Source of the DNA: Chloroflexota bacterium | GTDB lineage: Bacteria > Chloroflexota > UBA11872 > VXOZ01 | Direction: 5' to 3' | Length of the DNA stretch: 64,000 bases | Assembly (NCBI GenBank): GCA_958295775.1 | Contig: CATQHC010000009.1 | Coordinates: 186,001-250,000 of the forward strand | Part shown: in pieces, positions 36,158 to 52,023 of the stretch | Layout: each line of letters opens with the position of its first letter | Position numbering within the stretch: the first letter of the stretch is position 1 | Notes under the pieces: model-generated | Databases searched by the model: none | What the model was told of the DNA's origin: nothing | Seen by the model: the letters and a program-made list of their open reading frames with translations, nothing else | Translations under genes and position numbers: made by a program

Positions 36158-36559
36158 ATGCGGAACATCTTGGGTAGTTCCCAAACGCCGGAAGTGCTAG
36201 GGCGCTGCCCCGTATGCTCTAGCGAACTCACCGTACAGCGACTACGGTGTTCGTCGTGCAACGTCGCCCTGGAAGGGGACTTTCATCTCAATCCATTCAA
36301 CCGGCTCACCTCTGAACAGCAGCGGTTCGTCGAAATCTTTCTGGTCGCTCGCGGCAACATGAGCGAGGTCCAAAAAGAACTTGGCGTCTCTTACCCCACT
36401 GTGCGCGCGCGCTTGGAAGAAATCATTGCCCAACTCGGGCATCGGCCGACCTCAGATGATGCGGCAGTACAGGCTGAGCGCCTGCGCACCCTGCAGGAAG
36501 TTGAAAGCGGAGCGCTGAGTGTTGAAGAGGCACTGAGCCGCCTCGCGCACAAGGAGTAG
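36158..36559 (+). CDS. DUF2089 zinc-ribbon/HTH protein
   Basis: 133 residues. The N-terminus has a zinc ribbon, CPVCSSELTVQRLRCSSC. Then LTSEQQRFVEIFLVARGNMSEVQKELGVSYPTVRARLEEII is a helix-turn-helix that is strongly conserved in DUF2089. The C-terminal helix (EVESGALSVEEALSRLAHKE) resembles the short SHOCT-like helix of the next gene. It is predicted to be a DNA-binding regulator. GGGAGG lies ahead of the ATG, and the next gene follows after only four bases, so it is probably the regulator of that membrane-stress-type protein. Confidence 0.9.
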   Translation: MRNILGSSQTPEVLGRCPVCSSELTVQRLRCSSCNVALEGDFHLNPFNRLTSEQQRFVEIFLVARGNMSEVQKELGVSYPTVRARLEEIIAQLGHRPTSDDAAVQAERLRTLQEVESGALSVEEALSRLAHKE

Positions 36560-36563
36560 CAAT

Positions 36564-37649
36564 ATGGGCGATGAAGAACGCTTGATTTTGGAAATGCTGC
36601 GCGAGGGCAAGATCTCCGTAGAGGATGCAGAACGCCTACTCGGTGCAATCGGCAAGGGCAACGATAGGGCAGGAAGCGGGTTCTCGTCGATATTGGAGAG
36701 TAGTTGGTGGGAAGAGGTGGAACGGTCTCTCGGCGAAACGCTCTCTAAAGTGGAAGACCGCATCTCGCGCGCGGTGACCGATCTGCCAAGGGGGAGCATC
36801 CGCATGCCCCTGCGCGGACTGAATCGCAAGCGGCAGCGCGAAGAACAGGGATTCACGCCCGTAGACTTGCAGGGCCAATCGTTTTCAATTCCAGCCGATG
36901 CCCGCATGGTGGTTGACATCGAAGGCAGCGCGCTCACAATCGAGGAAGCGTCCGGCGAGGCACACGTTAGCTTTGACCGGGAAGGACACGATTGGGAGTG
37001 GTCTGTACTCAAACAAGACGACACGTACGTGCTTTCCGTTTACGCGAACGCGGTGTGGGCCGGCGTGCCCAACGTCTCCCTCCGCTTGCCTCCGCTGCGC
37101 TCTCTCACCTGTCAGGTTGTGGGCAGCAGCATGTCCGGTCATAGTATAACCACGCCACTGGAAGCCTCAATCTCCGGTGGGTCGATACAGCTTACTGACG
37201 TAGCCGGGGAACTCAAACTAAACTCCTCCGGTGGCGCCATCGGGGTGATCGGCAACGTCGCTTCGCTGCAGGCGGTTTCCGCAGGCGGGCCGGTCTCACT
37301 GCTGGGACGAGTAGAAAGTCTCGATGTCAGAGCTGCCGGGGGGTCTGTGAGCATCAACCATGCCGCGCTCCGCGAAGGGGACCATCACGTTGAGAGTGCC
37401 GGTGGCGGAGTTATGCTGGTGTTAAATGCAGATTCTGAGGTCGCCATTGACGCTGCATCTTCCGGTGGCGGTGTGGACGTGAATGTTCCTGGGGCTTCAG
37501 GCGAGGCACGGAACCGGTACGGCACCGGTCAATTCAGCGGATCGCTCGGGGCAGGTACGGCCAGTCTACAACTGCGCAGCAGCGGCGGCAGCATTCGCAT
37601 AAGCGTCTCCGAAGAAGCCGGCGCTTCTAACGGAACTCCCTCCGCATAG
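36564..37649 (+). CDS. SHOCT-like N-terminus plus DUF4097-type beta-helix protein
   Basis: 361 residues. Residues 1-32 (EERLILEMLREGKISVEDAERLLGAIG) form the SHOCT-like helix pair found in YvlB/LiaX proteins. Residues about 110-355 form repeated short beta strands with S-S/A-G-G turns (NSSGGAIGVIG, SAGGPVSLLG, RAAGGSVSI, SAGGGVMLVL, SSGGGVDVNV, SSGGSIRISV), the DUF4097/DUF2807 adhesin-like beta-helix. There is no signal peptide. In Firmicutes, related proteins belong to envelope-stress responses. The tight coupling to DUF2089 is a recurrent pairing. Its exact role here is unknown. Confidence 0.85.
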   Translation: MGDEERLILEMLREGKISVEDAERLLGAIGKGNDRAGSGFSSILESSWWEEVERSLGETLSKVEDRISRAVTDLPRGSIRMPLRGLNRKRQREEQGFTPVDLQGQSFSIPADARMVVDIEGSALTIEEASGEAHVSFDREGHDWEWSVLKQDDTYVLSVYANAVWAGVPNVSLRLPPLRSLTCQVVGSSMSGHSITTPLEASISGGSIQLTDVAGELKLNSSGGAIGVIGNVASLQAVSAGGPVSLLGRVESLDVRAAGGSVSINHAALREGDHHVESAGGGVMLVLNADSEVAIDAASSGGGVDVNVPGASGEARNRYGTGQFSGSLGAGTASLQLRSSGGSIRISVSEEAGASNGTPSA

Positions 37650-37830: not shown

Positions 37831-38826
37831 CTACGCGCTGACTTGCGTGAAGCCGTAGTCCAGCAGAACGGCAGCATCGGTGAAATGCTGCTGTGACCCC
37901 ATTACAACGACAAGCAAATGATGGCCGTTCCGCTCCGCGACTGCCACCAAACAATAGCCGGCGTTCGGAGTCCAGCCTGGCTTTAGGCCGTAGGTGCCCG
38001 CGTACGTCCACAACAATCGATTGAGATTCCACGGCCCATACCAGCCATGCTGTTCAGTGGCAGTGAACTCTATGCGCTTCACACTGGCATAGTCGATGAT
38101 TGCGGGCGTCCACTCGAGGGCGTACTTAGCAAGCGCTGCTAGGTCGTGAGCCGAGGAGTAATGCGGCAGGGTGTCTTCATCGAATCCGGTCGGGTTGCTG
38201 AACTTCGTGTTCTGGAGACCAAGCTCCTGCACTTTGGCATTCATGGCCACAATGAACTCATCGTAGCCCAACGTACCCTCGGCAACGGCCATTGCAGCAT
38301 CATTCCCCGAATCAAGCATCATTCCGTACAGAAGTATTTCCAAGGGCACTACTTCTCCAGCCTGCAAGCCCATCACATTGGGTTCCGCAGCGGCTGCTCG
38401 CTGAGAAACCAGTACCTCCTGGCTGGGTGCGGCGTTCTCCAAAGCGATGATGGCGGTGAGGACTTTCGTCGTGCTGGCAGGCGCTCGCTGCTCATCTTCA
38501 TTGTGCGCGTAGAGGACGGACTTTGTGGCAAGGTCGACAAGAATTGCAGACTGCGCCGTAAAGTTGGCGAGAACGGGGGCCGGGTTCTCTTCCAGCCAGG
38601 TGTAGGAGAAGTGTGGACGCGGCGGAGAAACCGTGGCAATCACTTCTCTAGCGGGTAGCGGTGTACTCTCAGTAACCGTAAGGATGGCTTCGGAAGGCTC
38701 TGGGGCAAGCCTGGTGAGCAACATCACGCCCGCCAAGGCCAGGGCCATTGCGACCACCCATGCCAGGAAAGCGGGGCGCCGCCTACGTCTGGGCGGGTTC
38801 TGCGGCTGATACCTGTAGGGCTCCAT
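37831..38826 (-). CDS. D-alanyl-D-alanine carboxypeptidase (S11 family)
   Basis: 331 residues. An arginine-rich cytoplasmic start is followed by a membrane helix (about 17-40) and an extracytoplasmic penicillin-binding domain. The catalytic SxxK is in RAPASTTKVLTAI, the SxN in MMLDSGNDAAMAVAEG, and the third motif is YGLKPGWTPNAGYC, where K-P-G replaces the usual KTG. It trims pentapeptide side chains of peptidoglycan, which argues for a cell wall with meso-type precursors. It is convergent with the DUF2089 pair. No C-terminal amphipathic anchor or PBP5_C domain is present. Confidence 0.9.
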   Translation of the reverse strand: MEPYRYQPQNPPRRRRRPAFLAWVVAMALALAGVMLLTRLAPEPSEAILTVTESTPLPAREVIATVSPPRPHFSYTWLEENPAPVLANFTAQSAILVDLATKSVLYAHNEDEQRAPASTTKVLTAIIALENAAPSQEVLVSQRAAAAEPNVMGLQAGEVVPLEILLYGMMLDSGNDAAMAVAEGTLGYDEFIVAMNAKVQELGLQNTKFSNPTGFDEDTLPHYSSAHDLAALAKYALEWTPAIIDYASVKRIEFTATEQHGWYGPWNLNRLLWTYAGTYGLKPGWTPNAGYCLVAVAERNGHHLLVVVMGSQQHFTDAAVLLDYGFTQVSA

Positions 38827-39252: not shown

Positions 39253-40221
39253 TCATTCAACCAAGCCGGTACGGTCCACACTCTCCACGAAATAGCGTTG
39301 GGTAAAGAGGTATACCACAAGGGGCGGCATAACGACAAGGAATGACGCGGCCATGATAACCGCTTCATTAAACTCATCCCCTGCACCTTGGCCGGCGAGC
39401 ATTTGCAGCAATGCGGCACTCAAAATGGACAAGCGCAACGGCAGGGTAAAGTTGTTTTGGTCAAAGAGATAAATCGTCGGTTCGAAGAAGTCGTTCCAAT
39501 GCCACACCAAAGAAAACAGGAACACCACGATAATGGCCGGGGCCGCTAAGGGCAGCATAATACGCCAATAGACGCTGAAGGGTCCCGCGCCGTCAATGCG
39601 CGCGGCATCCTCCAACTCATAGGGTAAGTTTCGGAAGAACTGCCTGAACACAAGAATGAAGAGTGCGCCTCGCAGACCATGACCGAACAGCGCAGGGATC
39701 AAGAAAGGGAAGTACGTATCCATGAACCCAAGGTTTCGGTAAAGGATAAAGAGAGGAACGATGATGGTCTGTGGCGGCACCAGGAACGTGAACAGCACCA
39801 ACAGAAAGAGAACATCACGTCCCGGAAAGGGTATTCGAGCAAAACCATAGGCTACAAACGAGCAGGCAACGGTCTGCAGAATGCCGGAACCCAGCGAAAT
39901 AATGACGCTATTGCGCGCCGCTTGCCAATAGAGCATACCGCTAATGGCAAGCTCATAATTCCTCCAGAAGAAGGTGCGGGGAATCCAGAGCACAGTTAGG
40001 TCAGCCAAGTCTGCAACCGTCTTTAGCGACGTTGAGAACATGTAGATGACTGGAAAGAGGAAGACAAAGCAGACATTTATCAGAATGATATACGTCGCGA
40101 GGCGGAGGAATACATTCTCCCACCACTTCCGTGATGTCAGTGCACCCAGTACGCCTTGGCGCTGTCGAATAACAAATACAGATTCAGCCATACCAGGGTA
40201 CTCCCTACCGTTCACCCGCAT
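39253..40221 (-). CDS. Carbohydrate ABC transporter permease, MalG-type (pair 2)
   Basis: 322 residues with six predicted membrane helices starting at about 40. The binding-protein-dependent transport EAA loop is ELEDAARIDGAGPFSVYWRIMLPLAAPAI, and PPQTIIVPLFILYRNLGFMDTYFPFLIPALFG is typical of MalG-type sugar permeases. A cytoplasmic N-terminal extension of about 30 residues precedes helix 1. It overlaps the upstream MalF-type gene by 17 bases, so the two form a heterodimer. It is the last gene of the seven-gene operon. No ATPase gene is adjacent; a shared MsmK/UgpC-type ATPase elsewhere is inferred. Confidence 0.92.
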   Translation of the reverse strand: MRVNGREYPGMAESVFVIRQRQGVLGALTSRKWWENVFLRLATYIILINVCFVFLFPVIYMFSTSLKTVADLADLTVLWIPRTFFWRNYELAISGMLYWQAARNSVIISLGSGILQTVACSFVAYGFARIPFPGRDVLFLLVLFTFLVPPQTIIVPLFILYRNLGFMDTYFPFLIPALFGHGLRGALFILVFRQFFRNLPYELEDAARIDGAGPFSVYWRIMLPLAAPAIIVVFLFSLVWHWNDFFEPTIYLFDQNNFTLPLRLSILSAALLQMLAGQGAGDEFNEAVIMAASFLVVMPPLVVYLFTQRYFVESVDRTGLVE

Positions 40222-41179
40222 AGAATACGAAGCGGCTTGATATCACCAACGCTAACGCCATGAAGAGGAAGATGGAGGCAAAATACATCCAGCCCAGAGC
40301 TGCCGCGTAGCCAAGCCGGAAGTCTCGGGTCAGGCCCACAGTCTGAATGTAGGTAAGCACCTCGTTGAAGTTGTCGGTAAAGGAATCCACGATTGTGTAC
40401 ACAACGTTGACCAAGATGACCGGCGAAAGCATGGGCAGTGTAATGCGCCAGAAGATCTGCCAGCCGGAGGCCCCGTCGGTCTTCGCTGCCTCACGCATTG
40501 TCAGCGGAATGCTATGCAGACCCGCGACAAAAATGAGGATCTGTACACCGGTTCGCCAGAGAACCAGCGTCACCCGGTTTACCAAGTCGAGAACCCAATC
40601 CGCAATTGTGCCCTGCAAGTAGGTAAACACCACTTCGCTAAGCGTTTGCACACTCACGCCAATGGCTTCCGTACTTACACCCTCACCAAACAAGCGCCGA
40701 ATGACAATCGCTGAGCCAATCACGACCGGCATAAAGAGCAGCATGCGGAACACGCCGCGGCCAGGCAGATCCTGCACAACCAAGATGGAAACAAACAATG
40801 AAAACACCAGAATAATTGGCAGGTCCGTCAGCAGATTCGCCACCGTCTTGGTAAATAACGGCAGGAAGTGAATGTCTTCCAAGAATGGCTCAGCGTAATT
40901 CTCCCACCCAATAAAGGTCAGCTTGAGTTCAGAACTCGTGATCTTAACATTATGGAAGCTGACGTAGAGCGACTGAAACAGCGGCCATGCAAGAAAGATC
41001 ATGAAGCCCACAATCCACGTGCTGATGTAGAAGTACCCGTCCATAGCACGCTGCACCCTATAGGTCAGGCGCACACCCACCGCTGACAGGACAACGCGGA
41101 ACGACAGGATGCTCGCCGGCACAACAAAAGCCAGCCCGGTGAGTATCAAGACCCACATATAATTATCTTCAAATTGCAT
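40205..41179 (-). CDS. Carbohydrate ABC transporter permease, MalF-type (pair 2)
   Basis: 324 residues. An N-terminal hydrophobic segment (about 9-35) is followed by the usual six-helix permease core. The EAA loop is LTMREAAKTDGASGWQIFWRITLPMLSPVILVN. FLAWPLFQSLYVSFHNVKITSSELKLTFIGWENY is the typical MalF-type periplasmic entry. It follows the DUF5696 gene after five bases and overlaps the MalG-type gene. The extra N-terminal helix and the longer FEDIHFLPLF region differ from pair 1, so the two permeases are not recent duplicates. Confidence 0.92.
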   Translation of the reverse strand: MQFEDNYMWVLILTGLAFVVPASILSFRVVLSAVGVRLTYRVQRAMDGYFYISTWIVGFMIFLAWPLFQSLYVSFHNVKITSSELKLTFIGWENYAEPFLEDIHFLPLFTKTVANLLTDLPIILVFSLFVSILVVQDLPGRGVFRMLLFMPVVIGSAIVIRRLFGEGVSTEAIGVSVQTLSEVVFTYLQGTIADWVLDLVNRVTLVLWRTGVQILIFVAGLHSIPLTMREAAKTDGASGWQIFWRITLPMLSPVILVNVVYTIVDSFTDNFNEVLTYIQTVGLTRDFRLGYAAALGWMYFASIFLFMALALVISSRFVFYAGER

Positions 41180-41184
41180 AGTCG

Positions 41185-43635
41185 TTACCTCCGCGGCGGA
41201 ATAATGAGATAATTCTGGCCCTCGACCGCGTGTTCGCCGTCAGTATAGCGACGCGTCTTGTAGTTTACAATCACACGCGTACCATCCTCATACACGGTTT
41301 CATAGACGCCATCGGCAATCTGTCTATGGTCTTCCATTAGCAGATTTACCGTGTAGCCCAGTTGCCTGATAAACAACTCATACTCGTCGACAATCTGAGG
41401 CTCCCAATCAGCGAAACGGGAAGAATAGAGACGATTATACTGGGTCCGCGTCAAGAGAACGCTTGGATTAGCCGTTAACTCAAAGGTCGGCAGAGCGCCA
41501 TATTCTATGGCCCGCAGGAACTCATCGCGGTCACTGCGAAGGTTGCTCTCATCGCCCGTATAGCGCACGAGCCCGTGCACCGCCAGCGGGAAGAACGGCA
41601 CCGTTTCCTCGCTGAACACATAATTGTAGCGATCCAGTGGCACACGAGTGAAGAAGTCAGTGGTATCGAGCATATAGGCATTTGCGCCCTGAACCACAGC
41701 CGTGCCGGTCTCCTGCTTACTAATCTCGATTATGTCTTTCCACACATCCACAAAGTCCTGCCGACTCAATTTCTCGCCGCCTCTCGCAGTGTCAACCGGC
41801 TGTTGCAAGCCCCGGACCTCAAGGAACAAGCCTCCCAACAAGACAACCAAGAGCGCGGCAGTGGCAATGGGCCGCCAGATCGGTCCGCCAGCAAATTGAC
41901 CGAATATGGTGTCGCCGGGCCGACGAGTCCCAATCAAGACAGTGTACAAGCCAAGCCACACAAGTGCGACCAAACCAATCAATCTCAGACCGACGGTAAA
42001 TGACGATCTACCGGAAAAGAGGATGGGATAGTGGTTAAGTGCCACTTTCCCAAAGAAACGGAATTCAACCCCGGATACCCCATAATCCTTCATTTTCGCA
42101 ATATCGTCTTTAGCGTACCGGTCGCGCGCAATTTCCGGACGCAGTAGCTGCACCTCGGTATGCGGCTCGTCTTCTTTCCGCTTAAAGCCAACATAATTGG
42201 TCGTAATCGGCAATCGATTGGCTCCCCGTATCACATCAGTAAGCGGATTGAACCGGAAGAAGGAGTCAATGTTGCGGAAACCGAAGAGGTAATTGTCTTC
42301 CAAGTAAAGCGGTATGTTGTTCGCATTGGCATAATTTGCTACAGAGCGAAGACCCTCATCGCCACCAAGTCTGCCTTCCGGCGGCAGCCGTTTAGGCAAT
42401 GACCAGTCATAGCCATCCTGGTTCCAGCCCACAAGAGTAACCCGGAGGTTTTCCAAACCTCGCTCATCCCTGAGAGTCTTCAGCATCGCCAAAGCCTCAT
42501 CGAACGTAGTCATCTTGATGAACTGGTCGCGTGGAAAGGCCTGTCGTTGCATGGCCATGAAGATCCGCAAATGGAGGAAGGGCGCCGGTTCCTCAAGCCT
42601 TTGGAGGCCGCGCTCGTTCATCAAGAATTCGCGGTAGGTCTTTGCCATGCCCACATATGTCGCGTCATAGCCGCGCAGGAACGCATACTTTAGTTCACGG
42701 TCGCCCTCAACCCGGTCCTGCTCAAAGCGCGTCACAAAAGACGCACGCCGCAATGGGAACGGCGCTTTTCGTCTAAAAATAAACTGGCCGGAAATACGAT
42801 TATAGCCAAGCGCAGTGTAGCTCAGCGCGGCACTGACATTTACGTCCATGTCGCCCTTGGTGACAATACCCGTAAATGCCGTTTCACCACGCACCAAGCC
42901 AAAGACTGGCACTGGGATTGGACCCTGCTGCTGTTCGGGCTCGAACGAGAATAGCGCCGGCCCATAGACTTCAGCTAGGAAGTTATGTCGATATTCAGGT
43001 TGTTCCGGTCGGAAGTGCACGATTGCGCCAGGGCCGTCCGGCACGAAGAGGTACCCCTTTTCCTCGTTGGAAGCAGCCCCGAGAAAAGGCATGATGTCCA
43101 GCGTAACCAACAAGCGTTCTTCCGTCTCACGCACACTGTCATCGGGCACAGCCACCACAAGGCGATCATCTTCCAGCCAATAGTCGATGGTAAAGCCGAT
43201 ATTCAACTCTTCGAACAGATAGTCAACCTTGATGCCGCCGTCGATGGGAGTAAAGGTCATCTTCGGCAGGTCGGAGATGATATCTGCCACTCGGGTCTGC
43301 GTGCGCACCTTGTCAGTGTATTCGACAATGACAACCGAGTTCAGACGGGCCTTGATAGAATCGGAAACCGCTTCCGGATTCTCGAGAATGGGCGAACTTC
43401 GCCACAGCCGGCCATTTTCACGGTCATCGAACACTGCCAGTTGTGAATTCTCTTTGTTAAGGAAGAGCGAGAGGTGCTCAACCTTGCTCACTTGCTCAAA
43501 CTCCGGGCCGAGCTCTTTCGCCGGATCCAAGGCCGGGGCGGCAGTCGCCGGTGTGATAGGCAGTATGGTGAAGAGCAGAACTAGCGGAACAAAATACCGT
43601 ACGACACGCCATACCTTAGCGAGTGACAACTTCAT
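41185..43635 (-). CDS. DUF5696 glycosidase-like secreted/membrane protein
   Basis: 816 residues with a signal peptide (about 1-33). Residues 40-330 are beta-rich with FVPDGPGAIVHF and RGETAFTGIV, typical of the DUF5696 N-terminal domain. Residues 330-735 look like a TIM-barrel glycoside-hydrolase-type domain (LRVTLVGWNQDGYDWSLPKRLPPEG, YLEDNYLF, then TAVVQGANAYMLDTTDFF and VPFFPLAVHGLVRYTGDESNL). Within this domain, residues about 540-610 form two strongly hydrophobic helices separated by a short loop. The protein therefore seems anchored by a hairpin in the middle of the barrel sequence. It overlaps the NHL/YIP1 gene by 20 bases. The enzyme activity is undetermined. Confidence 0.82.
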   Translation of the reverse strand: MKLSLAKVWRVVRYFVPLVLLFTILPITPATAAPALDPAKELGPEFEQVSKVEHLSLFLNKENSQLAVFDDRENGRLWRSSPILENPEAVSDSIKARLNSVVIVEYTDKVRTQTRVADIISDLPKMTFTPIDGGIKVDYLFEELNIGFTIDYWLEDDRLVVAVPDDSVRETEERLLVTLDIMPFLGAASNEEKGYLFVPDGPGAIVHFRPEQPEYRHNFLAEVYGPALFSFEPEQQQGPIPVPVFGLVRGETAFTGIVTKGDMDVNVSAALSYTALGYNRISGQFIFRRKAPFPLRRASFVTRFEQDRVEGDRELKYAFLRGYDATYVGMAKTYREFLMNERGLQRLEEPAPFLHLRIFMAMQRQAFPRDQFIKMTTFDEALAMLKTLRDERGLENLRVTLVGWNQDGYDWSLPKRLPPEGRLGGDEGLRSVANYANANNIPLYLEDNYLFGFRNIDSFFRFNPLTDVIRGANRLPITTNYVGFKRKEDEPHTEVQLLRPEIARDRYAKDDIAKMKDYGVSGVEFRFFGKVALNHYPILFSGRSSFTVGLRLIGLVALVWLGLYTVLIGTRRPGDTIFGQFAGGPIWRPIATAALLVVLLGGLFLEVRGLQQPVDTARGGEKLSRQDFVDVWKDIIEISKQETGTAVVQGANAYMLDTTDFFTRVPLDRYNYVFSEETVPFFPLAVHGLVRYTGDESNLRSDRDEFLRAIEYGALPTFELTANPSVLLTRTQYNRLYSSRFADWEPQIVDEYELFIRQLGYTVNLLMEDHRQIADGVYETVYEDGTRVIVNYKTRRYTDGEHAVEGQNYLIIPPRR

Positions 43636-45724
43636 AAATGACCTCCCATAAGAAGCGGATCACCCGCGACGACATAAAGTAGCTAAGGGCGGAGATGCCA
43701 AAGATTGCAACCATACCCAATATATTCAAGAAACTCACACCTGCTGCACGCTTGAATTCAAAGTCGTGCACCACTTTCACTTGTAAGTAGATCAGGATAC
43801 CCATCCACCAGTACATGGCCGTCTGGGCAAAACCGTACAAGGCACTCTCATCCTGGGTAAGCACGTTTGAAATCAGTGCCAGCGGCAGTGCAATCAAGAT
43901 GTAGGGCTGCAAGCAGTATGCAGTTGTCGCTGCCACCACCTTCGGGGAACCCTCACCGTAGAAAATGGCACTCACGCCGTAGTTCGCAACTACCCAGACA
44001 ACGAACGGCACGAGTATGCGGGAGACTTCCAGTACGAAATTGATGTCCTCGGGATCAATCGCCGAGAAGTGAAAGCTGACAGTATTGAGCGTTAGCATGC
44101 GCACCATGATGGCTAACCCCAATAGCGTCCACACAGTCCACCACGTTGATTCTTCGCGCAATGCCCAGAACGTCTCCATCGGGTCCCGCAGGACTCCAAC
44201 CGCTTGGCGATAGATCTTGAACCAGGTGCTTTCCCGCTTTAGGATTCCACGTTCGAATCCAAATTCAAATACCCGACGCGTGCCACGTGGAATAACTATG
44301 ATCGCACCGATACCCAAGAACAGGTAGAGCATGAACAAACCGAAGTTCGCCCGCATCCACAGATATCGTGCCTCCGAGTAGGCCTTGGCGTATTCATCCT
44401 TATCGTAGCCTCTGAAATACTCGACCATCGCGTCCTGGTACCGTTCCTGACGGTAGAGGGCCTTCCCCAACGCGCTATGGGCGAGATACATATTGGCATC
44501 AAGCTTCAGCACCTGCTGCCAAAGATTCGCTGCCTCATCGTAGCGGCCGTCCCAATAGAACTTACTCGCTGAGTGCACAAGCCGTGCAAAGAGCGTGGGA
44601 CGATATACCTGGATGTTGTTACGAATTGCATCCAAAATATACAGGGAACCGGCGGCATCCGTCACCACGCTGGTGGGATACCCAAGCTGCCCCTGCTGTA
44701 CGCCACGCCCGCCAAACGCGAGCAACGGCTCACCATCTTGGTCGTATTGATAGACTTTCGCAGAGTTGGCGTCTACCACCGTAATGATGCCCGCCTCATT
44801 GACGTTTACATCGGAGAAACGCGGGAACTGAGTGCGCCTACCCGCCCCTTCACGTTCGCCATAGAATTTGAGCGAATCTTCCTTGAAGAAGCGCATGTAA
44901 ATGGCCACAGACGTCGAGTGGGGATAGACGTTCACACCCACCGGGCTGAGCTTCTGCAATTGGTCCTTTACCGCCGTAGCCACGACGGTGTAGAGGAAGC
45001 CATCTTCGGAAAGGTAAAGATTCGAGTGCGGCGTCGGTTGCGGCAGGAAGATCTTGCGGCGCTGTTCTTGCGTCGCGAACATGCTCACAATCAATCGGCG
45101 CAGGCTAAAGTCCAAGCGCGTAGCCCCAAAGAAGCCGCGGAAGTTGCCTTCGCCATCGAGCACAATGATGCCAAGGTTGCTCCCTGCCTCAAGCGTGTAA
45201 ATGCGTCCACTCCGGTCCACCACGAGCTTGCTAGGTGCAAACGTATGATCGATAGGAACCAGAGTAGTCTCAGGCTTGAAGAACTCATCAACGAAGTTGC
45301 CCTCGGGGTCCAACCGGAGAATGCGGTTATTGCCTGTGTCAGCAACAAAGATGTTTCCGTCAGGATCGACATAGACACCTTCCGGCTTGCTCAGGTTGCT
45401 AATCTCCATAAGGTACTCGCCTTCCTGTGAGAATTTGAGTACCCGATCATTCCCAGTGTCGGCGAGCCACAGGTTCTCCTCGTGGTCGAGGTAGAGGTCC
45501 GAAGGCTCTTTGAAGGCGCCTGTCGGGAGGTGGATGCCGTTGATTTCTTTCTCAAAAATATAGGGGAGCGGGGACGGCACCCGTTGATTGCGGGGATCGA
45601 TTGTGTACGACAACTTTGGATCAAGCTCCAAAGCAGAAGCCGTGCCGGCCGACGTAAAGACAAGCCATACCGCCGCCAGCACCGCCAGCAGTGCCTTTAG
45701 TCTTGACCCTTTGTGTCCAAACAT
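43616..45724 (-). CDS. NHL-repeat, TPR and YIP1-domain membrane protein
   Basis: 702 residues. Signal peptide, then about 330 residues of NHL beta-propeller repeats (LYLDHEENLWLADTGNDRVLKF, VYVDPDGNIFVADTGNNRILRL, VNEAGIITVVDANSAKVYQYD, VTDAAGSLYILDAIRNNIQVY). TPR-like helices follow (FYWDGRYDEAANLWQQVLKLD, AHSALGKALYRQERYQDAM), then a membrane helix (LFMLYLFLGIGAIIVIP) and a multi-helix YIP1 domain (DPMETFWALREESTWW onward). The start at 45724 has AAGGGA nine bases upstream; a GTG at 45745 is an alternative. Placed between two permease pairs, it may sense or organise ligand or protein partners outside the cell. No enzymatic motif is visible. Confidence 0.82.
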   Translation of the reverse strand: MFGHKGSRLKALLAVLAAVWLVFTSAGTASALELDPKLSYTIDPRNQRVPSPLPYIFEKEINGIHLPTGAFKEPSDLYLDHEENLWLADTGNDRVLKFSQEGEYLMEISNLSKPEGVYVDPDGNIFVADTGNNRILRLDPEGNFVDEFFKPETTLVPIDHTFAPSKLVVDRSGRIYTLEAGSNLGIIVLDGEGNFRGFFGATRLDFSLRRLIVSMFATQEQRRKIFLPQPTPHSNLYLSEDGFLYTVVATAVKDQLQKLSPVGVNVYPHSTSVAIYMRFFKEDSLKFYGEREGAGRRTQFPRFSDVNVNEAGIITVVDANSAKVYQYDQDGEPLLAFGGRGVQQGQLGYPTSVVTDAAGSLYILDAIRNNIQVYRPTLFARLVHSASKFYWDGRYDEAANLWQQVLKLDANMYLAHSALGKALYRQERYQDAMVEYFRGYDKDEYAKAYSEARYLWMRANFGLFMLYLFLGIGAIIVIPRGTRRVFEFGFERGILKRESTWFKIYRQAVGVLRDPMETFWALREESTWWTVWTLLGLAIMVRMLTLNTVSFHFSAIDPEDINFVLEVSRILVPFVVWVVANYGVSAIFYGEGSPKVVAATTAYCLQPYILIALPLALISNVLTQDESALYGFAQTAMYWWMGILIYLQVKVVHDFEFKRAAGVSFLNILGMVAIFGISALSYFMSSRVIRFLWEVIYEVVTR

Positions 45725-45774
45725 TGTTGCCATTCCCTTACCCACTATTGGTAATGTTGCTGTCTGTCGCGCAG

Positions 45775-46635
45775 TTACGCCTTGATTCCTGAATGTGCCA
45801 TTGTCGCAATCACGCGCCGCTGCACCAAAGTAAAGAGGACCACCGGCGGCGTGATCATGATGAATGTCGCGGCGGCATATGCGCCTTGGCGCGCCACAGA
45901 ACCCTGGCTAATCAAGGTCTGCAGAGCGATAGGCAAGGTCCGCATCGATTCCGTACGCGTAAACACCAATGGCCCCCAAATGTCATTCCAGGTAGCAACG
46001 AAAATTATAATCACCAACGTTGCCCAGGCCGGTGTTACCAAAGGCATGACGACCCGCCAAAATACAGTCCACTCTGTAGCGCCGTCTATCTTAGCCGACT
46101 CAATGAGTGCCCCCGGTATCTGCTCCATGAACTGCTTCATCAAGAAGAGCGCGTAAGGGATCGCCAGATTGGGGAGGACCAGCGCAAAGTAGGTGTCGAT
46201 GATGCCAAGCTGATAAACCACGAGGTACCGCGGGATCGCAGTCACCTGCGGCGTGAACATGAGCGCCGCAATAACCACCATGAACATGGCATTGCGTCCC
46301 GGGAAGTTGTGTTTTGCCAGCGGATAGGCCGCCAGGCTCGCCAGCAACACACCACCTACGACCGTGCAAAACGCGACAAATACACTATTGAATATGTATC
46401 GAATGAACGGCACATTCAAGGAATATGTCGCAATGAGCAGGTCTTGGAAATTACGCAAAGTGGGATTGCGCACGATAAAGCGCGGCGGAAATAGGAAAAG
46501 CTCATCAATAGGCTTTAGTGCGTGCGAAACGACGAAGATCAGTGGCAACGACATGAACGCGGCGAGGATTGTCAAAGCCGCGATGGTCGTAAACTCACCG
46601 CTCGTCATCTTGAATCGGCCAACTCGAATTATCAT
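45775..46635 (-). CDS. Carbohydrate ABC transporter permease, MalG-type (pair 1)
   Basis: 286 residues, six membrane helices. The EAA loop is ALIESAKIDGATEWTVFWRVVMPLVTPAWATLV. TPQVTAIPRYLVVYQLGIIDTYFALVLPNLA and MKQFMEQIP are typical of MalG-type sugar permeases. It ends 30 bases before the NHL/YIP1 gene's farthest start and follows the MalF-type gene by 21 bases. It forms a heterodimer with that protein and is fed by the very large binding protein encoded at the head of the operon. Confidence 0.93.
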   Translation of the reverse strand: MIIRVGRFKMTSGEFTTIAALTILAAFMSLPLIFVVSHALKPIDELFLFPPRFIVRNPTLRNFQDLLIATYSLNVPFIRYIFNSVFVAFCTVVGGVLLASLAAYPLAKHNFPGRNAMFMVVIAALMFTPQVTAIPRYLVVYQLGIIDTYFALVLPNLAIPYALFLMKQFMEQIPGALIESAKIDGATEWTVFWRVVMPLVTPAWATLVIIIFVATWNDIWGPLVFTRTESMRTLPIALQTLISQGSVARQGAYAAATFIMITPPVVLFTLVQRRVIATMAHSGIKA

Positions 46636-46656
46636 TTACCGCTTCCCCTTCCTTTC

Positions 46657-47622
46657 CTACTCATCCTTGGTTGAAAGCAGACGCAAGGCGCCCTGCCCGA
46701 CACCGAAGGTGATGATGAAAAGTATCACGGCAATTGCGGCCGCATACCCCATCTCAAAACGGATAAAGGCATAATCATACAGGTGCGACAAGATCATGTG
46801 CGCTGCGTAGAGCGGGCTGGGGAGACCGGCGAGAGATAGTGAAATCTCAAATCCAGCCGAGAACATAAGCACTACCGCGTTGATAACGCCAAAGAGCACC
46901 TGCGGTTTCATCGATGGCAGAGTAATATACCACATTTCCTGCAATGGATGGGCGATACCGTCTACCTTGCCAGCCTCGTACAGCTCGGTATTCACCGTCT
47001 GCAAACCGGCCAAGAAGACCAGGAAATTGTTGCCCATGCTCATCCACAACATGACGAACATGATCACCGGCAACATAGTTCGCTGATCGATAAGCCACAG
47101 GAACGGCTCCTGGATGAAACCCAAGCGCATTAGGAAATAGTTCATGTACCCGTAGCGGTCGCCGGAAAAGACAATCCGCCACACAACCGCCATTGCAATG
47201 GCGCTCGTCAGCGAAGGCGCATAGAACGCCAAAGCGTAGAGCGTACGCACCCGAATCTGGTTGATGAACCAAGCGAGCAAGAAAGAGGCCGTCAAACTTA
47301 CCGGGCCCGTAATGAAGGCAAAGAAGAGCGTATTCCTGATCGAGAGGACAAAAATATCGTCTTCCAGGAAGAGCAATCGGTAATTGGACCAGCCAATTAC
47401 GCGCGGCGCCTCCAGCATGTTGAAATACGTAAAGCTAAGCCAGATAGCAACCCCGACCGGAATGATCAGGAATGCAAAGAAGAATATCATGTAGGGAAGC
47501 AGGAACGCGTAGGAAACTCCGTACTGGCCGAAGATTCGTTGCATACCCGTCTTTGGCGCTGAGACCGCTCGCGGCTGCGTCGCGGTGTCAGAGCCTGTGC
47601 CGCTACTCTTCACCTCGGCCAT
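46657..47622 (-). CDS. Carbohydrate ABC transporter permease, MalF-type (pair 1)
   Basis: 321 residues. A hydrophilic N-terminus (about 35 residues) precedes six helices. The EAA loop is variant: YEAGKVDGIAHPLQEMWYITLPSMKPQVL, where the usual EAAxxDGA reads EAGKVDGI. FLIIPVGVAIWLSFTYFNMLEAPRVIGWSNYRLLF is a typical MalF-type start. Its ATG overlaps the stop of the binding-protein gene by one base (TAATG), a sign of tight coupling. Confidence 0.92.
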   Translation of the reverse strand: MAEVKSSGTGSDTATQPRAVSAPKTGMQRIFGQYGVSYAFLLPYMIFFFAFLIIPVGVAIWLSFTYFNMLEAPRVIGWSNYRLLFLEDDIFVLSIRNTLFFAFITGPVSLTASFLLAWFINQIRVRTLYALAFYAPSLTSAIAMAVVWRIVFSGDRYGYMNYFLMRLGFIQEPFLWLIDQRTMLPVIMFVMLWMSMGNNFLVFLAGLQTVNTELYEAGKVDGIAHPLQEMWYITLPSMKPQVLFGVINAVVLMFSAGFEISLSLAGLPSPLYAAHMILSHLYDYAFIRFEMGYAAAIAVILFIITFGVGQGALRLLSTKDE

Positions 47623-50600
47623 TATTCCAGACCCCCTTTCGTCTTACTGAGATCAACCGGCAAGCCAAACTCCTCGCGCTTGCGAATCAACTCGCGGTCG
47701 ATCTGCTTGACTGCTTCTTCGAGGGCTTCACGTGCGTTCCAGCCTTGAAGCACCACGCGGTTCCAAGCATTGATTATGTGACGCGGCGTAAAGTATCCAC
47801 CCAATGTGACGGGTTGCTCCTTGAACCAGCGCCATTGCTCCTGGATAGATTCGATGTCCTTTTGTGGGAAGGGAAGCTGGTTTAGGGCTTTAACATTCGC
47901 CGTATTCCAGCGGGCCTCCGTGCCAATCAGGGCCTCGAGCTCTTCGCCGAATCGCGCTTGGGCCCGCTCGGACGTCCACCATTTCGACCACTCCCAGGCC
48001 ATGTCTTGCTTATCTGAATTATCCATGATCACCACGGCTTGACCATAGCCGCCTGAGGTCCGGTCTACTTGTCCGTCTGGTCGGCGTTTTCCGGGAAGCG
48101 GAAGCATTTCCCAGCGGCCTTCAAGCTCCGGGGCCGCAACGGACAAGAGAACGTAGGTAAAGAAGCCGGAGACGCCAATCGGCATCTCGCCGGTCCTCAT
48201 GCGGTTATAGAAGTCGGCTTGCTGTGTGATCTTGTAATTCGTGTAGAGCTCGGTCCATTCACGGAAGCCGGCCAGGGCTTCCGGCGAGTCAAGGGCGCTC
48301 AGTCCTCTATCGGTATAGAAGTCTCCGCCGTTTTGGTAGAGGAAAGGCAGGAACCCCGGCACAAGGGACTCAGCCAAACCGTAGATGCCCCCGCCCGCGG
48401 ACACACCAACCGGCGGGAAGAAGAAGTCCATGCCGCGCTGCTGAAGCAGCCAGATCATATTGTACAAGTCTTCCCACGTGTCGGGCGGAGTCAGACCCAA
48501 CTCATTGAAGATGTCCGTGCGGTAGAACATCATCAAGAAGTCCTGCGTTTCCGGTATTGCGTAGTCTCCGCCCTCCCAACGGAAGGGCAAGAGCGCCCCT
48601 GGACGGAATCGCGTTGCCACCTCCTGATAGTCCAAGAACTTATTCATGTTGGCAACGCCGTTACGGATAGCAAACTCTACCGGCACGTCAGGCAGTACAC
48701 CTGTCGCCACATCCGGCGTCACACCGCTGGCTACGGAGAGGAGTAACACATTTACCGACCCCGCGCTAAGCTGTGCCGGCGGGAATACCTGTAGGTTGAC
48801 ATTGATGCCACTCGCCGGCGTGAAGTCATCTTCGGTCATGTCCTTCATGATCATGCCCCACTCACGGCCACGCGCCACCCACACCGTAATGGTTCTTTCA
48901 TCATCACCGTAGATCGAACCAACACCGTAGTAGTTGCGGACAAATGAACTCAAGAAGTTCATGAAGCCTGCCCAGGACTTCAAGAAAATGTTTGCCTTGC
49001 CTACCGGGAGTTCCATCTCGGGATTCGTAATCAGCAAATAGTCCAGCCACAACGGGTGCTCTCGCAAGTACAACAGCCACTGTGAGAGCCGACCCTGGCT
49101 CGCGCTAAGGTCGCTGAGCCGGCGCGACATGCTTTCAGGATCGCGGGCCATGTCTTCCAACTGGAAGGCCACTTCTCCCAGCACATTGGCCACATTCGGC
49201 TTCACGCCGTTGTTGACCTCTGTCATGTGGCCCACTTGGTCTCGAAGCAACTCATAGTTCGTGACCAACCGTGGCACCAGCGTCGGAATACGTGAAGTAA
49301 GGTCAAATTCCATGTACGGATCGGGATTAACACCCGTAATCATCGTGATTTCGCGCACCATAATGGAAAGGTCGGTTACAACCTTATTGATGGCGCGAAT
49401 AGTCTCCGCCGACGGACCGACCGTAACCTCCATCGTTAGGGTGTGCTTACCCTTCTCAAGGTAGAAGAGGTACGGTTCCCCCTCCCCTGCCTGTTCACCA
49501 AACGGCACAATGCGCCAGTCACGGTCATTGTCAGGTGTGAACAGGAAGTTGTTGAGCTCTTGGAACGGCACCTTGCCGTCAATGAGAATCCGTCTCGCGG
49601 AAGGCAAGAAGCTTGCGTAGGCCTGCCAGCGCCGCCAGGCAATCTTGTAGAGGCCGTCTTCCGGCACCTCAAATTCCCACGTGGCGGCCTGCAGAGCCCG
49701 GCGCCAGCGATACGAGCCGTACGCGTTCAGTCGCACATAACCGGCGGAATACGGGTCCACCAAGGGGCCGGAAGTGTATTCCATACGAATAGTAGCTTCC
49801 GTGCGTTCCACCGGCAGCTCGGCCTGATGACGAATGAGAGTCTCGCCTGCACTCTCGTAGCCGCGTTCTTCATACATCTTGAGAACTTCGGCGTATGTGG
49901 GCGGCCGCGTAGGCGGCACCAGGCGCAGGCTGCGAATTGCAATCGGCTCACGCACGGTGATTAAGCGGATAACGTGCTCGCCTTCGGTCAAGTAGAAGTC
50001 GAAGGGCCAGGGATACATGCCGTCGCCGTCAATAATTCGCACTGTCTCCCAACGCGGCACCTCGAATTGGCCCGGCCGGCGGTCGTTGCCCTGGTTATCG
50101 GTGGTTGGCAAGCCCTTGTCATTCCAGAACCGCACAAACACCAAGCGCCGTGCCTCTTGGAATGGGTACTCGCCATCGATTTGGATGCGCCGTTGGATGG
50201 AGGCTCGCTTACCCGCCAACGGGTAATATTCCATTTCAAGGTTGTAGAGACCGGTCTTTGGTACCGTTACTCTCCACTCCATCCACTCGGTTTCTTCTTG
50301 CCAATTGAGAATATCGCCCGTCTTACCACCGAGCTCGCTCATTATTTCCGGTTCATTGCCGCGGTGCCGGATGTAGTTCGCGTGGTCAATTGTAACTTCG
50401 GTATTCTCAACCCACTCATAGCCGCTCTTCGCATAGGACTCGAGCGTTTCCGCATAATTGGGTTCAAGCTTAACTTCGATTACGCCAGTAGCATGCGTAA
50501 TGAAAGTTCCTTGCTCTTCTGCGTCTTCCTCTTCTTCAGCGTCCTTCGGTTGTGCCGCTTGTGGGTAGACGGCAGCGGAAGCCGCAGTTGGGATGGAGAT

Positions 50601-50723
50601 CGTTACCAGCATCACAACGAGCCCAATATTGGTCCAGACAGACCACGAACGCAGATTGCGCATCGTGATGGACTTCCTCATTGCTGCCTGAAGCCCGGTT
50701 ATTGTTCTCTCCAGGATACTCAT
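47622..50723 (-). CDS. Giant extracellular solute-binding protein with duplicated N-terminal domains
   Basis: 1033 residues, more than twice the usual length. After a basic leader and membrane segment (about 32-50) and an acidic stretch, two similar beta-rich domains occupy about 85-270 and 290-440. Each has a W-x-F/V-x-V-P-x-x-G-L-Y strand and the repeated motif RRIxIDGxxPFQE (about 178 and 378). A helical linker (about 440-600) leads to a type 1 sugar-binding-protein fold (about 610-1015). That fold has TITVWVARGREWG, GVTPDVATGVL, FLMMFYRTDIFNELGLTPPDTWEDL and KQDMAWEWSKWWTSERAQ. GGTGG precedes the ATG. The extra domains may bind polysaccharide or anchor the protein to the wall. It heads the operon. 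Confidence 0.87.
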   Translation of the reverse strand: MSILERTITGLQAAMRKSITMRNLRSWSVWTNIGLVVMLVTISIPTAASAAVYPQAAQPKDAEEEEDAEEQGTFITHATGVIEVKLEPNYAETLESYAKSGYEWVENTEVTIDHANYIRHRGNEPEIMSELGGKTGDILNWQEETEWMEWRVTVPKTGLYNLEMEYYPLAGKRASIQRRIQIDGEYPFQEARRLVFVRFWNDKGLPTTDNQGNDRRPGQFEVPRWETVRIIDGDGMYPWPFDFYLTEGEHVIRLITVREPIAIRSLRLVPPTRPPTYAEVLKMYEERGYESAGETLIRHQAELPVERTEATIRMEYTSGPLVDPYSAGYVRLNAYGSYRWRRALQAATWEFEVPEDGLYKIAWRRWQAYASFLPSARRILIDGKVPFQELNNFLFTPDNDRDWRIVPFGEQAGEGEPYLFYLEKGKHTLTMEVTVGPSAETIRAINKVVTDLSIMVREITMITGVNPDPYMEFDLTSRIPTLVPRLVTNYELLRDQVGHMTEVNNGVKPNVANVLGEVAFQLEDMARDPESMSRRLSDLSASQGRLSQWLLYLREHPLWLDYLLITNPEMELPVGKANIFLKSWAGFMNFLSSFVRNYYGVGSIYGDDERTITVWVARGREWGMIMKDMTEDDFTPASGINVNLQVFPPAQLSAGSVNVLLLSVASGVTPDVATGVLPDVPVEFAIRNGVANMNKFLDYQEVATRFRPGALLPFRWEGGDYAIPETQDFLMMFYRTDIFNELGLTPPDTWEDLYNMIWLLQQRGMDFFFPPVGVSAGGGIYGLAESLVPGFLPFLYQNGGDFYTDRGLSALDSPEALAGFREWTELYTNYKITQQADFYNRMRTGEMPIGVSGFFTYVLLSVAAPELEGRWEMLPLPGKRRPDGQVDRTSGGYGQAVVIMDNSDKQDMAWEWSKWWTSERAQARFGEELEALIGTEARWNTANVKALNQLPFPQKDIESIQEQWRWFKEQPVTLGGYFTPRHIINAWNRVVLQGWNAREALEEAVKQIDRELIRKREEFGLPVDLSKTKGGLE

Positions 50724-50924: not shown

Positions 50925-51929
50925 CTATCTTTGTTCGTCAAGAGCCACACGAAAGCCAAGCGCATGCGCCTGCGGGTCCACCGGGTTACCGCGGCTGGCG
51001 CACCGCGCGTGCTGCTGGCTATCGCGCCAGCAACCGCCACGCACGACCCGATAGCGGCCATGGTCTACCACCTGGGCCGCGATAACTTTATTACCGACGG
51101 ATCCGGGATATGTTCCTATGAATGAAGCTGTCCACTCGGCTACGTTCCCCGACATGTCCAGAGCACCGTAAGGACTTACCCCATCAGGATACACTCCAAC
51201 GGGCGTGGGACCGGCCAGGCCGCCCTCCCAGGTATTGGCGCACATGTAGCCGAAAGTCTCCCCCCACGGAAATGGCCTTGCGTCTGTGCCCCGCGCAGCT
51301 TTCTCCCATTCTTCTTCCGTGGGCAGTCGATAGGGACGGCCGGTTGCACTCGCCAGCCAATCGCAATACGCGACCGCTTCATCCCACGTGACATCACGCA
51401 CCGGCTGATTCTGAATCCAGGGATCTATGGCTGTGCCGTCCCAGTATTCTCGCGGCGACGCGCCGCCGGCAAGCACAAGGGAACGGAAGTCGAGGTTCGT
51501 TACAAGGAATTTTCCAATATAAAACGGAGGAAGCTCGACGGTACGTGCCGGCGTTTCCATGAGAATGAGGCCGCGCTGTGTCTGGTGCTCCGGCTTCGGT
51601 TCATCCGTTTCCTCCTGGAATTGGCCCAAAATCTCGTCCACAGACTCGCTATCCGTACCCATAGTGAAGGCGCCACCGGGGACGCGCGCCAGCGCAGGTT
51701 CAAGCGTGCGAATGCGTGGGTCGCCAAGAAATGACAGTGCCTTGCCCACGGAGACCCGTTCCGCAACGGTGTATTGGCCGGGTGTACCCACCATGCGCAC
51801 GAGGTCGACCATTGCGATCTGTTTCTCGCGCTCGCTCAGCATCAGGAGTGCGCCATGGATGCGCTCCTGCACGTTGCTTTGCAGGTCCGCCCAGATTTCT
51901 TGTCCCAGACGTTCCTCTGTAATCGCCAC
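50925..51929 (-). CDS. SUMF1/FGE-fold protein lacking catalytic cysteines
   Basis: 334 residues. The N-terminal about 80 residues are helical and unassigned. The rest is the formylglycine-generating-enzyme sulfatase domain: VPGGAFTMGTDSE, LPPFYIGKFLVTNLDFRSLV, PVRDVTWDEAVAYCDWLASATGRPYRLPTEEEWEKAARG, ALDMSGNVAEWTASF and GYRVVRGG-type end. In true FGE the last segment has Cys-x4-Cys. Here it reads RGGCWRDSQQHARCASRG, and neither cysteine aligns with the catalytic pair. It is therefore more likely a structural, ligand-binding or EgtB/PvdO-like relative than a sulfatase maturase. The GTG at 51929 has GGGAG upstream; a TTG at 51986 is possible. Confidence 0.85.
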   Translation of the reverse strand: MAITEERLGQEIWADLQSNVQERIHGALLMLSEREKQIAMVDLVRMVGTPGQYTVAERVSVGKALSFLGDPRIRTLEPALARVPGGAFTMGTDSESVDEILGQFQEETDEPKPEHQTQRGLILMETPARTVELPPFYIGKFLVTNLDFRSLVLAGGASPREYWDGTAIDPWIQNQPVRDVTWDEAVAYCDWLASATGRPYRLPTEEEWEKAARGTDARPFPWGETFGYMCANTWEGGLAGPTPVGVYPDGVSPYGALDMSGNVAEWTASFIGTYPGSVGNKVIAAQVVDHGRYRVVRGGCWRDSQQHARCASRGNPVDPQAHALGFRVALDEQR

Positions 51930-52023
51930 GCGTAGTCTCTCCCAACTATTCAGCCCGGCAAATCCGCACCCAGGCAGTATACACAATGAAACGCCAAGGC
52001 ATTAGCGGTGCGGCAATTTGCTC

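Follow-up and report, generated by a model that had tools for sequence, protein, structure and literature searches.

The locus analysed here raises the question of how a transport operon functions that combines one very large solute-binding protein (SBP), two permease pairs, and proteins of unsettled role, and that encodes no ATPase of its own. It lies in a window (the whole stretch of Chloroflexota DNA that was analysed) of 64,000 nucleotides. An earlier note on this DNA had proposed a dedicated module in which a large surface binding protein, a beta-propeller protein, and a glycosidase-like protein feed two permeases that carry different products of one glycan. Verification of the open reading frames (ORFs) in the window re-found seven leftward ORFs (39253-50723, minus strand) in the gene order SBP-F-G-NHL/TPR-YIP1-DUF5696-F-G, with intergenic distances, in transcription order, of -1 (TAATG), +21, +29, -20, +5, and -17 bases, in agreement with the coordinates, strand, overlaps, and short gaps given before. 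Searches of the ORFs against Pfam and NCBIfam assigned them to SBP_bac_1, BPD_transp_1 (four permeases), NHL with TPR and Yip1, and DUF5696, which are the families that had been claimed (Table 1). No ATPase gene was found between or beside the seven operon genes. On one side of the operon lies a gene for a D-Ala-D-Ala carboxypeptidase (37831-38826), on the other a gene for an FGE-sulfatase-domain protein (50925-51986); among the Chloroflexota loci these outer neighbours vary from lineage to lineage. By eye, two consecutive plus-strand genes at 36158-37649 of the window appear to encode a DUF2089-type regulator-like protein and a DUF4097-like repeat protein.

Table 1. Features of the operon, in transcription order, with positions in the window
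Feature	Position	Strand	Basis and remarks
Giant SBP, 1033 aa	47622..50723	-	N-terminal TM anchor, two beta-sandwich domains, helical domain, CUT1-type sugar SBP domain
N-terminal membrane anchor of giant SBP, aa 21-41	50601..50663	-	hydropathy and AF2 helix 21-41
First beta-sandwich of giant SBP, about aa 100-270	49914..50426	-	AF2
Second beta-sandwich of giant SBP, about aa 296-433	49425..49838	-	AF2
Permease P1F (MalF/UgpA type), 321 aa	46657..47622	-	BPD_transp_1, E 2e-9
Permease P1G (MalG/UgpE type), 286 aa	45775..46635	-	BPD_transp_1, E 6e-15
NHL-TPR-YIP1 protein, 709 aa	43616..45745	-	Pfam; TM anchor, NHL propeller and TPR, TM, Yip1 membrane domain
Yip1 domain, aa 517-681	43703..44197	-	Pfam; separate gene in 23/80 relatives
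DUF5696 protein, 816 aa	41185..43635	-	Pfam, E 4e-152; GH129-like fold without conserved catalytic pair
Arg526 of DUF5696, at GH129 nucleophile Asp position	42058..42060	-	HMM-HMM alignment
Two-TM hairpin in DUF5696, aa 544-611	41803..42006	-	insertion; window's genus alone
Gln649 of DUF5696, at GH129 acid/base Glu position	41689..41691	-	HMM-HMM alignment
Permease P2F (MalF/UgpA type), extra N-terminal TM, 324 aa	40205..41179	-	Pfam, NCBIfam
Permease P2G (MalG/UgpE type), 322 aa	39253..40221	-	Pfam, NCBIfam

Conservation of the module was assessed by a scan of an independent collection of genomes, one per species, for DUF5696 relatives, from which 80 loci were retained and scored with profiles built from Chloroflexota members alone. 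These loci span three phyla, i.e., Chloroflexota, Bacillota (hosts including Paenibacillus, Cohnella, Neobacillus, Sutcliffiella, Lachnospiraceae, and Oscillospiraceae), and, with one MAG, the spirochaetes. The full gene order was found at 69 of the 80 loci and a contiguous subset of it at 9, of which 8 lie at contig ends, while at the ninth (L067) the NHL gene is preceded by an inserted small SBP gene, which leaves the giant SBP gene outside the scored span, further upstream. Of the other two loci, L053 represents an artefact of overlapping-ORF calling, and L051, from an Anaerolineae MAG, carries a third MalF/MalG-type pair (869-2935) directly upstream of the giant SBP gene. The gene order is conserved far beyond chance. 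Within the window's class, DUF5696 was detected in 15 of 41 genomes (14 above the family cut-off), and in all near-complete genomes of the window's genus; the fetched regions of families f1, f4, and f5 display identical gene order, the NHL-TPR and YIP1 parts being two adjacent genes in f4 and f5. Since the scan had started from DUF5696, a second search, for which the giant SBP's N-terminal half served as query, was run against 301 sampled Chloroflexota genomes and detected 25 carriers, all 25 with a strong DUF5696 match, usually at a distance of 7-8 kb on the same contig. The co-occurrence of the DUF5696, NHL-YIP1, and long SBP genes with two permease pairs supports the co-inheritance implied by the proposal of a dedicated module, and the arrangement named beforehand as its refutation, a split of the permease pairs between operons that each have an SBP and an ATPase, was encountered at none of the 80 loci.

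The same conservation bears on a different explanation: the operon would join two CUT1 importers of the ordinary kind, each for one of two related oligosaccharides, and the giant SBP would work with one permease pair and DUF5696 with the other. Across the 80 loci the layout can be read as [SBP-F-G]-[NHL-YIP1]-[DUF5696-F-G], which places DUF5696 at the binding-protein position before F-G, and one genome may hold several copies (e.g., several loci in P. sp. J5C2022), as expected of dedicated importers. However, the operon occurs in one copy per Chloroflexota genome, where it has no fixed sugar-degradation neighbours. Conserved glycan-degrading neighbours were likewise not found in the Chloroflexota loci examined, and a substrate guess from neighbouring genes was abandoned for lack of any conserved neighbour in this phylum. 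In Bacillota the commonest neighbour is another SBP, besides two-component and AraC regulators. Just downstream of one operon, a gene was observed that encodes an anhydro-N-acetylmuramic acid kinase fused to a beta-lactamase-type domain (L047:14833-17223).

The absence of an ATPase, which had been presented as a property of the system, holds for the window's lineage but not for the module as such. At 30 Bacillota loci, the giant SBP gene is directly preceded by a gene (~375 codons) for a MalK/UgpC-type ATPase, mostly at a spacing of -7 to +51 bases; this adjacency was scored by motif search, by which rare variants may be missed. Because these 30 loci carry an ATPase in the operon, its lack is a lineage trait. 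Bacillota copies with their own ATPase, often accompanied by one adjacent small SBP, are also what two ordinary importers would look like. The genome of the window encodes two OB_MalK ATPases, neither of which adjoins a permease. An orphan UgpC-type ATPase of 369 aa (G000:C2, about 103.5-104.6 kb) scores 464.5 bits in the UgpC subfamily, as compared to 462.7 bits for an operon-borne ATPase and a cut-off of 432, and is 52% identical to the operon-borne protein. Sharing of one ATPase by several importers is known for multitask ATPases such as MsmX (PMC7658222, PMC5730181). We infer that this orphan ATPase pairs with the operon permeases, in which case it would drive both pairs. A second orphan UgpC-like ATPase (L042:4281-5444, G000:C4) has an extra stretch near its N-terminus and reaches 348 bits against the cut-off of 432.

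The earlier description of one operon protein as glycosidase-like was correct with respect to its fold. A PDB search with the DUF5696 profile retrieved GH129 structures, HMM-HMM alignment (hhalign) with a small GH129-like set gave an E-value of 6e-61 over 646 columns, and a divergent homologue from genome G030 matches GH129 enzymes over its own full length (E 9e-54). The AlphaFold2 (AF2) model of DUF5696 (pLDDT 85.5, pTM 0.84) retrieved ZgGH129 and NagBb as its best PDB matches in Foldseek (E to 1e-31), followed by GH101; homology and fold extend across the catalytic domain. The nucleophile column was anchored on ZgGH129, whose solved D486N mutant differs from the wild type at that place alone, and the acid/base column on Glu478, the acid/base residue of NagBb. 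The catalytic Asp and Glu of GH129 are absent from the window protein, and its candidacy as an active glycosidase was rejected on these residues (Arg526/Gln649). Because both catalytic positions are acidic in 1 of 56 DUF5696 proteins, as compared to Asp and Glu in all four GH129-like controls, the family is probably non-catalytic and DUF5696 a pseudo-glycosidase. With the catalytic pair absent in 55/56 proteins, degradation of a glycan, as implied before, is therefore unlikely. An active surface DUF5696 that cuts one glycan, different products of which are imported by the two permeases, would fit its GH129-type nature, but the loss of acidic residues across the family, the Arg and Gln in the window protein, and the lack of conserved glycan-degrading neighbours in Chloroflexota make this explanation very improbable. 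The hairpin insertion point is located by the pocket, just after the DUF5696 strand that corresponds to the nucleophile-bearing strand of GH129, and the hairpin would tie the mouth of the barrel to the membrane. One operon-bearing genome also encodes a GH129-type protein that retains the catalytic Asp and Glu (L039:8539-10743), presumably an active relative of DUF5696.

By family and anatomy, the remaining proteins are consistent with a sugar importer that has a membrane-anchored outer part. In the giant SBP, SBP_bac_1 was detected at aa 633-923 (E 1e-17), within the C-terminal 400 residues, and in the AF2 model (pLDDT 83.9) the best Foldseek matches of this domain are MalE-like and cyclo-oligosaccharide-binding proteins (E to 2e-21), which provides the operon with the family 1 sugar-type binding protein of a CUT1 importer. 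Its first beta-sandwich distantly resembles CBM35/Golvesin_C, with Pfam matches below cut-off, and a lipobox was found in 1 of 42 relatives. Profile, hydropathy, and AF2 together confirm the large membrane-anchored binding protein that had been proposed, and Pfam confirms the NHL domain of the beta-propeller protein, whose NHL propeller and TPR part is predicted to face outside. The four BPD_transp_1 proteins supply MalF-/MalG-type permeases; their closest families are UgpA/UgpE, MalF/MalG, and GlcT/GlcU, all below equivalog cut-offs, and each has, by eye, an EAA-type ATPase-docking loop. Retention of this loop in all four permeases and the dedicated UgpC-type ATPase at 30 loci speak against a complex that acts mainly as a sensor or in envelope homeostasis, with the permeases transducing the SBP loading state instead of importing. 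Although NHL, TPR, and YIP1 commonly belong to proteins that mediate interactions or membrane trafficking, and histidine-kinase-type ATPase domains (5), response regulators (4), and AraC regulators (5) occur among 93 neighbours beside Bacillota loci, such a role is highly doubtful, and the operon very probably encodes an importer.

Which binding proteins this importer serves was approached by a census of SBPs and permeases. The genome of the window (3.4 Mb in 9 contigs, 95% complete) yielded 72 SBP_bac_1 matches, of which about 68 are counted as sugar-type when the giant SBP and proteins of the phosphate, Fbp, and Mod types are excluded. The BPD_transp_1 domains number 16, four of which are the operon permeases, and ten non-operon permeases were profiled as PstA, PstC, Fbp/2-AEP-like, ModB-like, TauC/SsuC-like (2), ProW-like, Gln-type amino acid, OppB, and OppC. 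None of the non-operon permeases fetched from this genome resembles P1F or P1G by profile, and weak similarity to P2F/P2G is confined to the ModB- and Fbp-like ones. The four operon permeases are the sole sugar-type permeases found in this genome. Moreover, the 40 regions that were fetched contain 51 SBPs, and no sugar-type permease adjoins any of them, the sole flagged permease being ModB-like; 45 of these 51 SBPs have a lipobox, and Gfo/Idh/MocA dehydrogenases, sulfatases, and sugar-isomerase-like proteins are among the products encoded next to the orphans. In the explanation by two ordinary importers, the orphan SBPs would use something else or merely sense sugars; that the genome yielded no further sugar-type permease to serve roughly 68 SBPs weighs against this, and we consider it unlikely, though clearly less so than an active glycosidase or a sensor. 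The imbalance between SBPs and permeases points to one importer that many orphan SBPs would share, and not to a pair of importers devoted to a single glycan. Together with the absence of co-travelling glycan-degrading genes at the Chloroflexota loci examined, it leaves the suggestion that the two permeases carry different products of one glycan without support.

Similar imbalances were found in other genomes that carry the operon. The SBPs linked to permeases number 0/12 in G030 and 2/15 in G031, both operon-bearing, as compared to 8/10 in five operon-free genomes (G013, G015, G016, G021, and G022). The median ratio of candidate SBPs to permeases is 3.1 with and 0.5 without the operon (p = 2e-5, kinship uncorrected), based on loose first-look candidates of which 72 of 78 were confirmed in the window's genome. 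This ratio amounts to 3.2-4.9 in family f1, 6.4 in G030, and 3.1 in G031, and to 0.1-0.8 in all but one of the operon-free genomes of the class. The correlation with the operon follows family lines and is therefore not independent evidence genome by genome. Many SBPs without permeases of their own alongside one permease set are what the window's genome displays; deviating cases are G027, where the operon was not found among 330 contigs (89% complete; 243 SBP candidates), and the Thermoflexus-type genera g10 and g13, in which the operon is present and the SBP:permease ratio ordinary. About 240 and 230 SBP_bac_1 candidates were counted in G027 and G030, respectively, each with few permeases.

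In Bacillota, 38 genes for small SBPs, counted over all 80 loci, directly adjoin the operon on its strand, which may mean that the module in its ancestral state had a single SBP of its own. In the SBP tree, these operon-adjacent proteins (flanks of L057-L122) form one clade (support 0.96), a subfamily tied to the module. Kinship of the orphan SBPs with this clade was considered but is not supported, as the tree does not group the two; the orphans are interleaved with permease-linked SBPs. Since the tree neither joins the orphans to the operon-adjacent SBPs nor splits off the permease-linked ones, a delivery of orphan SBPs to the operon permeases is suggested by counts only.

Taken together, we give about even chances to a type I ABC importer of the CUT1 type (maltose/UgpABCE-like) that has two MalF/MalG pairs and is shared by orphan lipoprotein SBPs. 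In such an importer, dozens of dispersed SBP lipoproteins would catch different substrates, which are expected to be sugars or sugar-like, and bring them to the one permease set of the operon. The giant SBP, the NHL-TPR propeller with its YIP1 membrane part, and the GH129-like protein would constitute a membrane-anchored outer platform, a role suggested by their anatomy and constant co-inheritance, which may receive or hold SBPs and substrate close to the permeases, while the GH129-like barrel would grip glycan without cutting it. One guess for the retention of two permease pairs in every lineage is a separate handling of short and long ligands. The most specific version, in which a single-copy permease set with a fixed docking platform serves nearly seventy interchangeable lipoprotein SBPs, and perhaps around two hundred of them in certain relatives, is put forward tentatively, as somewhat short of an even chance.

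These results place DUF5696 and the NHL-TPR-YIP1 protein, both of unsettled role, in one fixed cross-phylum transport module, and identify DUF5696 as GH129-derived and devoid of the conserved catalytic pair. If the importer is indeed shared, new substrates could be gained by the addition of one SBP gene alone, sharing among SBPs would far exceed known cases, it would be explained how MAGs that encode orphan sugar-binding lipoproteins by the dozens or hundreds can feed, and transporter counts derived from SBP genes would be wrong in such genomes. Culturable hosts such as Paenibacillus and Thermoflexus open the module to clear tests. In the literature searched, which covers few subscription journals, no mention of DUF5696, no match to the YIP1/NHL/permease combination, and nothing on an SBP excess of this kind was found. 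The module is apparently undescribed; what seems new is the constant set of accessory proteins, together with the surplus of SBPs.

Compared to known systems, the operon belongs by its permeases and binding domain with CUT1 importers such as MalEFGK2 and UgpBAEC, with which it shares MalF/MalG-type pairs, an SBP_bac_1 domain, and, at 30 Bacillota loci, a UgpC/MalK-type ATPase, but differs from them by two permease pairs, an anchored SBP of 1000 aa, and the accessory NHL-TPR, YIP1, and DUF5696 proteins, which to our knowledge occur in no known CUT1 importer. DUF5696 shares full-length homology and fold with the GH129 hydrolases (NagBb and the 3,6-anhydro-D-galactosidase ZgGH129 of Zobellia), whereas it is membrane-anchored, lacks the conserved nucleophile and acid/base residues, and, among members of the window's genus, carries an inserted TM hairpin by the pocket. 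Finally, SBPs that are exchangeable on one permease are known from HisJ/LAO with HisQMP and from multiple OppA proteins, where SBPs outnumber permeases as they do here, but in the window's genome about 68 SBPs are found per two permease pairs, and in G030 up to about 230 candidates.
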